Positions 32,403 to 57,103 of a DNA stretch of 64,000 nt are shown here, piece after piece (positions within the stretch are counted from its first letter, which is position 1; the number at the start of each line of letters is the position of its first letter). The notes beneath the pieces were generated by a model. The model was not told the DNA's origin. It ran no database searches and was given only the letters and a program-made list of their open reading frames with translations. This DNA comes from Desulforamulus putei DSM 12395. GTDB lineage: Bacteria; Bacillota; Desulfotomaculia; Desulfotomaculales; Desulfotomaculaceae. Where the stretch lies: the NCBI RefSeq assembly GCF_900129195.1, contig NZ_FQUY01000009.1, positions 1 to 64,000 of the forward strand, given 5' to 3'. The position numbers were made by a program, and so were the translations under genes.

Positions 32403-32466
32403 GTCTAATATTTTTTTAAAATTATAATTTCCAAAAAAAGGTATTTTGCAAACATTGGCGTATAAT

Positions 32467-32499
32467 AATCTTAGATACCATAAAATGGTATCTAAGATA
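32467..32499. repeat. Perfect 14-base hairpin ATCTTAGATACCAT
   Basis: ATCTTAGATACCAT is followed by AAA and its exact reverse complement. It lies directly after a TATAAT word on the plus strand. It could be an operator or an RNA hairpin at the start of the plus-strand transcript reading through 32656-33300. Confidence 0.7.
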
Positions 32500-32655
32500 A
32501 TTCCTGCCTATCGAAGCCTTGCGGGTTGCGGGGATGGGACATACCCCCGCCGGGAGCAGGTAGCTCCACCACCGGCTCTATTGTTTTGCAGGAATTCTAC
32601 AATTAAATATGGATGGTCCTTTAACAGAACCTGCATGTTGAGGGAGGCGATTTGG

Positions 32656-32916
32656 ATGTGTTCAGTGAAATACTCCCCTGAGCCCATCAGGACCATGATA
32701 GCCTGGCCATCAGGCCCGCCCGGCAGACTGTTCAAAGAAGAAGGGGTACAACCACCGCCTGAGAATGCAGGACCACCGGGAAGAACGTCGGTCCCCGCAC
32801 GGGTTGGTGGAAAGTCAGGGGACCCGGACAACCCCAGGCCACCAACCCGGGAAGAATTTATAAAACTATTGAAAGGATGTGATACCCCGGGTGGTAACAA
32901 TTACCACCTGTCTTGA
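32656..32916 (+). CDS. Orphan proline/glycine-rich small protein (hypothetical)
   Basis: The ATG is preceded by GGGAGG at good spacing and opens an 86-residue frame, MCSVKYSPEPIRTMIAWPSG, continuing with P-P-P-E-N-A-G-P-P-G-R and ending G-G-N-N-Y-H-L-S. The N-terminal third is ordinary; the rest is Pro/Gly/Arg-rich and probably disordered, apart from a short helix (R-E-E-F-I-K-L-L-K-G). I recognise no family. The last codons contain a hairpin (GGTGGTAA / TTACCACC). A plus-strand terminator at 33276-33308 supports transcription on this strand. Confidence 0.35.
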   Translation: MCSVKYSPEPIRTMIAWPSGPPGRLFKEEGVQPPPENAGPPGRTSVPARVGGKSGDPDNPRPPTREEFIKLLKGCDTPGGNNYHLS

Positions 32917-33049
32917 AAAATTTTTCATTTACCTTTGAATGGTATAAATGCCGGCATTTACGACAAGCCTCTGATCTGATTAAACTTTTCCCTTCCTTTT
33001 TCTGATCATTTTTTTCTTGAACTTCCAAAGCCATTAACGGTACTGCATA

Positions 33050-33235
33050 GCCCAAGTAGCCAAGTCGCGGGAACCATGCAGGTCCGGTTGAATTTTAAGA
33101 AGAAGAGACGCCCCCAACCCTGCATACACATAAGGCAAAGGCCTTTTCCCTAGTTCTCCGGCGCATGAAGCGGGCCGCTTTCCGGAGAGCGGCCCCACAG
33201 CGAAGATATGAAACAGCAATAAAGATGATGGGAAA
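33050..33235 (-). ncRNA. Candidate structured RNA (possibly HEARO/omega-RNA-like)
   Basis: No convincing gene covers this stretch, yet it is dense in pairing. GGGCCGCT (33172-33179) pairs with AGCGGCCC (33188-33195). The loop of that stem (33182-33188, CCGGAGA) is complementary to TCTCCGG at 33155-33161, forming a potential pseudoknot. ATGCAGG (33076-33082) plus GGTTG pairs with CAAC-CCTGCAT (33115-33125). This architecture and the compact size suggest a conserved ncRNA. The strand is uncertain: the plus-strand terminator at 33276-33308 favours plus, my family guess favours minus. No nuclease gene is adjacent. Confidence 0.3.
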
Positions 33236-33275
33236 ATCAGGGACGGCGTTACGGAAAATTTCATAGGGCAATCAA

Positions 33276-33308
33276 TTACCCCTATCCAACGGATAGGGGT
33301 TTTTTTTA
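33276..33308 (+). terminator. Strong plus-strand rho-independent terminator
   Basis: ACCCCTATCC pairs with GGATAGGGGT around a three-base loop and runs into TTTTTTT on the plus strand. The minus-strand gene ending at 33306 has no T run after the hairpin. The terminator therefore serves a plus-strand transcript ending here, although no known plus-strand gene is nearby. Confidence 0.8.
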
Positions 33309-56846: not shown

Positions 56847-57080
56847 CAAAAAACTCCGTCCCGTAAAGGGACGGAGTTTTAGTATCCGTGGTACCACCCT
56901 CATTGGCTGCCGGTACATGACGGCGGCAACCCACTCGGACTTCTGTAACGGTGAAGAACCGGCAAAGCTTACTGTTGTTTCGGCTTGCACTCCGGGGCGG
57001 CCCGGCTGTTTCCTTGGCCGGGCTTGCACCGTCCCCCGGCTCGCTGAGCAATTCCCACAACCTTCTTCCCCGTCATCGTT
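56847..57080 (-). promoter_or_regulatory. T-box riboswitch leader
   Basis: On the minus strand the T-box sequence AGGGTGGTACCACGG (56886-56900) is followed by a terminator (CTCCGTCCC pairing with GGGACGGAG, then TTTTTT, 56847-56880). Upstream a Stem I-like region has AGCGAG and GGTGCAAGCC. T-boxes read uncharged tRNA and switch a terminator. The specifier codon could not be assigned with confidence. The promoter is at 57104-57132, so the leader controls the Lrp-type regulator and the aminotransferase. Confidence 0.9.
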
Positions 57081-57103
57081 TTTTGTATGGAGTATTGATT
57101 TAC

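Follow-up and report, generated by a model that had tools for sequence, protein, structure and literature searches.

A structured RNA domain absent from Rfam and held at one locus beside a small open reading frame in Desulforamulus

The RNA domain, its extent and its distribution

The question raised by this locus is what kind of molecule, if any, is encoded between positions 33050 and 33235 of a 64,000-nucleotide stretch of Desulforamulus putei DSM 12395 DNA (referred to here as the window), for which the original prediction had proposed a compact structured RNA without a gene, possibly of the HEARO/omega-RNA class. The segment is a genuine, previously uncatalogued folded RNA, held at one chromosomal spot in every Desulforamulus examined, and its structured nature is borne out by orthologues, covariation and a terminator. 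RNA does lie at the predicted coordinates, but its true extent is about 33037-33257 on the plus strand, with a covariance-model match at 33042-33257, and the 5' strand of its first hairpin, P1, had been missed. This region is called the 3' domain below. In the window, the neighbours of the element are rpmE, a small ORF, an M23 peptidase gene and rho, and every orthologue adjoins the M23/LysM peptidase-rho genes and has rpmE on its opposite side, the sister-genus contig stopping short of rpmE so that this flank is unread there. As predicted, the segment contains no gene: the 3' domain holds no plus-strand ORF of at least 60 aa, and a 76-aa minus-strand ORF over the segment was rejected since it is broken by stop codons in 9/9 relatives. 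The domain is followed by an intrinsic terminator on the plus strand, formed by the hairpin ACCCCTATCC-AAC-GGATAGGGGT and a T run (33278-33307), which occupies the same site in all relatives. A cis-acting riboswitch or leader was also considered and rejected, given that this terminator comes next and that the following gene is encoded by the other strand.

When 100 related genomes were searched at the DNA level, clear orthologues were returned in Desulforamulus and one sister genus. Two covariance models were built, R1 from eight sequences and R2 from all ten, and the window element scores 217 bits with R1 and 208 bits with R2. Model R1 recovers all ten members at 95-217 bits and places the element, in one copy each, in all ten genomes of the family (nine Desulforamulus and the sister genus), in agreement with R2. 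The remaining 103 genomes of the order (113 in total) gave no credible covariance-model match, a match in genome G108 being discarded as a homologue as it consisted of the P1 hairpin alone. Similarly, a 398-genome sample of the phylum searched with the covariance model yielded nothing beyond two weak matches of 22-25 bits (in genomes G462 and G293), which were rejected as distant homologues, both being located within protein-coding genes. Scanning 84,980 species genomes for a sequence pattern retrieved 96 stretches, among which R1 passes only those of Desulforamulus aquiferis, of D. aeronauticus and of a Bacillota MAG belonging to the sister genus, in a collection from which genomes very close to that of the window may be missing. 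No copy of the element was found in viral, phage and plasmid collections. At the gathering score, the 4227 families of Rfam 15 gave no match to the element, in the window or in its orthologues, and a literature search restricted to open-licence papers retrieved no description of it. The family is thus absent from Rfam, an orphan structured RNA that is unusually arranged with respect to a small ORF. All members examined of this genus, whose species are sulfate reducers that form spores, have kept it, along with a small protein specific to the genus and another structured domain.

Secondary structure of the 3' domain

The supported layout of the domain, all on the plus strand, comprises P1, a variable linker, P2 and P3, which close a junction, P3b, P4, P5, P6 and a UUACGGA tail. 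The P1 hairpin (33043-33081) is formed by CTGCAT (33043-33048) and ATGCAG (33076-33081) together with CCC/GGG, and its pairing is kept in relatives as CTGCAC/GTGCAG, TGTACC/GGTACA or GCTGC/GCAGC, while its loop carries the invariant, single-stranded motif AGCCAAGU (33058-33065). P2 (33107-33250), which joins GACGCC (33107-33112) to GGCGTT (33245-33250), is 100% paired, C-G having changed to U-G in places, and P3, joining CCCTG (33118-33122) to CAGGG (33238-33242), shows two-sided changes and closes the junction with P2. Inside the junction, P3b (AAGGC/GCCTT, 33132-33145) is a hairpin of 3-5 bp in 10/10 sequences. P4 (TTCCC/GGGAA, 33146-33234) is backed by covariation and by literal stem strings and encloses P5, a pairing of CGC (33162-33164) with GCG (33200-33202). 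Finally, the P6 hairpin (GGGCCGCT/AGCGGCCC, 33172-33195) has five pairs with two-sided change and occurs in relatives as GGTTGCT/AGCAACC, GGTCACT/AGTGACC, ACTGC/GCAGT and others. The long invariant motifs of the domain are AGCCAAGU, ACAU and UUACGG.

Two-sided change was observed in 14 of the 41 pairs of alignment A3, a count inflated by relatedness because the ten sequences come from one family, and 0/500 shuffles scored as high on the main measures. When pairing partners were slid by 1-3 columns in the same alignment, pairing fell from 86.8% to at most 51%; since A3 had been fitted to the covariance model, the stems were also listed as literal strings for each species. The minimum-energy fold of the window sequence alone gives P1-P2-P3-P3b-P4-P6. 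Folding energies compared with dinucleotide shuffles are unremarkable for the 186-nt segment (z -0.88) and give z values of -0.90 for the full 222-nt domain and -1.98 for 281 nt including the terminator. Single-sequence features of the domain are ordinary (z of about -0.9), so one sequence could not establish a structured RNA, and it is the comparison among relatives that decides the matter.

The covariation-supported architecture differs partly from that of the original prediction, which had described an 8-bp GC stem, a loop pseudoknot and an 11-bp bulged helix. The GC stem (33172-33179 with 33188-33195, GGGCCGCT/AGCGGCCC) is P6 and has strong covariation. The pseudoknot, TCTCCGG (33155-33161) with CCGGAGA (33182-33188), can form, with 7 bp each, in the window sequence and, of its nine relatives, in L003 and L004 alone, so that it is at best clade-specific; a 7-bp complement of the loop arises in about 5% of shuffles, and by chance in about 5-8% for each of these three sequences. 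The bulged helix, taken here as ATGCAG-gtcc-GGTTG (33076-33090) with CAACCCTGCAT (33115-33125), which is a reading of the earlier description, is likewise present in the window sequence but not conserved among relatives, and it competes with P1 and P3 for the same bases. This alternative pairing came about because the earlier start coordinate excluded the 5' strand of P1. For the 3' domain, conservation, secondary structure, synteny, the terminator and absence from Rfam are all demonstrated.

Upstream elements and the proposed transcript

Several further elements lie upstream of the domain, in a region that is readable in nine genomes, and all upstream counts are consequently given as 9/9. A promoter-like block, a hairpin (H0), a leader domain and the small ORF are on the same strand as the RNA domain and are conserved in all nine. 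The block (AAAAGG-N15-GGCGTATA, 32436-32464, plus strand) has near-constant spacing in 9/9 Desulforamulus loci, reads AAAAGGAAAT...GTCGTATA in relatives, and is AT-rich, its AAAAGG and G(T/G)CGTA strings lying an almost fixed distance apart; nowhere else does this genome match the pattern AAAAGGNNWTN{10,12}GNCGWATA. Its sequence suggests an alternative-sigma or sigmaH-like promoter. H0 (32464-32502, plus strand) is an inverted repeat with 18-nt arms, AATAATCTTAGATACCAT and ATGGTATCTAAGATAATT, and a hairpin with changed pairs is found at its position in 9/9 loci.

The leader (32499-32596, plus strand) is a second structured domain, in which the closing stem Pa (AATTCCTGC/GCAGGAATT; CCTGC/GCAGG in most relatives) closes a multi-branch fold. 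Its 28-nt core motif CGGGGANGNGNNATNCCNCCGCCGGGAG (32529-32556, plus strand) is almost invariant, and the exact motif is found once per genome in the nine Desulforamulus and in none of the order's remaining 104 genomes. A 146-nt leader stretch including H0 has a folding z of -4.45, with 0/200 shuffles folding as well. Four leader pairs, including some in Pa, show two-sided change when one relative (L007) is left out of the count, the core being mostly invariant and thus saying nothing for or against pairing. A pairing of leader 32620-32637 with RNA 33075-33092, judged by eye, was rejected as the complement is absent in L004 and L007, and the complementarity is read as a by-product because both stretches carry CTGCAT.

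Next comes the small ORF of 86 aa (32656-32916, plus strand), which is preceded by a strong ribosome-binding site (GAGGGAGGCG, 32640-32649) and encodes a proline-rich protein with the C-terminal motif SGDPxNPRPPTREExIKLLKGCD. It is intact in 9/9 Desulforamulus loci at 54-112 aa, all length changes being in frame, and third codon positions are the most variable in most pairwise comparisons. The ORF is found only in the genus Desulforamulus, and searches against Pfam and NCBIfam gave no family match. Its stop lies roughly 80-155 nt upstream of the P1 loop motif of the RNA domain. The very end of the ORF carries a GGTGGT...ACCACC hairpin (32891-32909), which recurs in several relatives with altered pairs.

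The reading preferred here, held at a probability of about 0.65, is that 33037-33257 is the 3' structured domain of a lineage-specific Desulforamulus RNA, which would be made as one unit with the upstream elements and act in trans, and whose P6 loop may pair with its counterpart in a second molecule. Transcription would run on the plus strand from the block at 32436-32464 and produce a single unit of about 840 nt, which begins with hairpin H0, continues through the leader domain and the small ORF, and closes with the 3' domain and the terminator. Within this unit, the 3' domain would work in trans as a folded RNA, either as an sRNA or as an RNP scaffold, because no same-strand gene follows it and the transcript stops just beyond it. 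It could be processed from the transcript, or be made from an unrecognised promoter of its own.

The alternative that survives best is a separate sRNA gene, about 270 nt long and unrelated to the small ORF, which would have a promoter of its own shortly before 33037 and act by base-pairing via the P1 loop AGCCAAGU. An invariant single-stranded loop is indeed the kind of seed expected of an antisense RNA. Between the ORF and the RNA the sequence is unconserved, so two separate units are possible, and an extended -10-like string, TGGTATAAA, occurs at 32940-32948 in the window. However, this gap is variable and has no promoter common to the relatives, nor any sigma-70-like match in the window, and the ORF and the RNA are adjacent in every genome where both are readable, all of which makes a separate gene unlikely. 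Less probable still is a 3'-UTR structure whose sole role is to stabilise or regulate the mRNA of the small protein, as a decay barrier or as the target of an RNA-binding protein, with no action in trans. Such a role would fit the position of the domain, which comes last in the predicted transcript that also holds the conserved ORF, just before the terminator, but a junction architecture of about 220 nt with long invariant motifs far exceeds the needs of a decay barrier.

The single-transcript reading can be carried further, to the whole 32465-33307 unit being one dual-function, "ornate" RNA that forms a homodimer through kissing of its P6 loops and may have the encoded protein as a partner; this is put forward tentatively, as a combination that is rather doubtful in its entirety. 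If true, it would be a dual-function unit in which a conserved gene for a small protein lies between two folded domains that are unrelated to each other. RNAIII of Staphylococcus aureus is a dual-function RNA that joins structured RNA domains and a small ORF in a single transcript; the Desulforamulus unit has no homology to it, and its dual function is suggested by anatomy only.

The P6 loop and the relation to known RNA classes

The loop of P6 (33181-33186) is a palindrome, UCCGGA in nine of the ten sequences and UUUAAA in the remaining one (L006), in which four changes relative to UCCGGA have left the palindrome in place. About 2% of 6-mers at the same distance from UCCGGA are palindromic, the switch being seen in one lineage only. 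The loop is a candidate kissing-loop site, where it would pair with the P6 loop of a second molecule to give a homodimer. Dimerisation is kept as a hypothesis because the palindrome switch occurred in a single lineage and a duplex of UUUAAA loops, at -1.4 kcal/mol, would be weak. The loops of OLE and GOLLD RNAs swap palindromes, which has been taken as evidence of intermolecular kissing loops (PMC12286853). OLE, GOLLD and ROOL resemble the present RNA in being multi-domain bacterial RNAs, and the change from UCCGGA to UUUAAA is evidence of the kind used for OLE and GOLLD (PMC12286853). Here, in contrast, the 3' domain is no longer than about 220 nt, the structured parts are separated by a conserved ORF, and an oligomer is a prediction. 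The Rfam scan, which included described families of the OLE/GOLLD/ROOL kind, gave neither a sequence nor a model match to them. The small single-copy locus is suited to direct tests of RNA dimerisation through palindromic loops and of a partnership between a small protein and an RNA.

Two known functions of compact bacterial RNAs fare worse than the readings above. A sponge RNA of the CsrB/RsmZ kind, sequestering CsrA, might be suggested by several conserved GGA motifs, which in most sequences are present in the P6 loop and the 3' tail, but the GGA counts (2-6, and only 2-3 in L004 and L006) are not consistently above the composition-shuffled expectation and several sites lie within paired stems, so this reading is very improbable. 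The weakest is that the element guides an IscB/IsrB nuclease as a HEARO/omega-RNA, or is what remains of such a guide as a stand-alone copy: the genome does hold a HEARO with a truncated IscB-like gene, but it lies elsewhere, and the segment, which has no nuclease gene nearby, gives no match on either strand to the Rfam HEARO model or to any other Rfam covariance model even at E up to 10, leaving this class assignment with next to no probability. The HEARO model also finds no match in the nine orthologous loci. The element shares with HEARO (RF02033) a compact structure of about 200 nt and, elsewhere in the same genome, an actual example of that class, but differs in having no adjacent IscB/IsrB gene, in not being mobile and in its junction layout. 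With one copy per genome, a syntenic position and no occurrence in the phage and plasmid collections, it is unlike a mobile-element guide.

The original prediction had proposed, as a check, to look for an isrB/iscB gene elsewhere in the genome, and a truncated iscB-like gene does lie beside a HEARO on contig C36. The Rfam HEARO model matches exactly one place in the genome (G000:C36:16074-16285, 127.8 bits), followed by a 130-aa fragment that matches NCBIfam guided_IscB and Pfam RRXRR. This IscB-like ORF comprises the N-terminal RRXRR part only, and the C36 HEARO, which together with the ORF occupies L024 1071-1712, is a candidate decaying or stand-alone omega-RNA. 6S RNA (RF00013), which is also a lineage-conserved structured RNA of about 200 nt, was rejected as an identity for the element, with no match at the locus and both 6S RNAs of the genome lying elsewhere. 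These two genes are located on contigs C37 and C34 (L022 and L023), with scores of 89.6 and 81.4 bits. In the window, the only Rfam match at gathering score is a T-box leader (RF00230) at 56864-57085 on the minus strand, with 111.8 bits.
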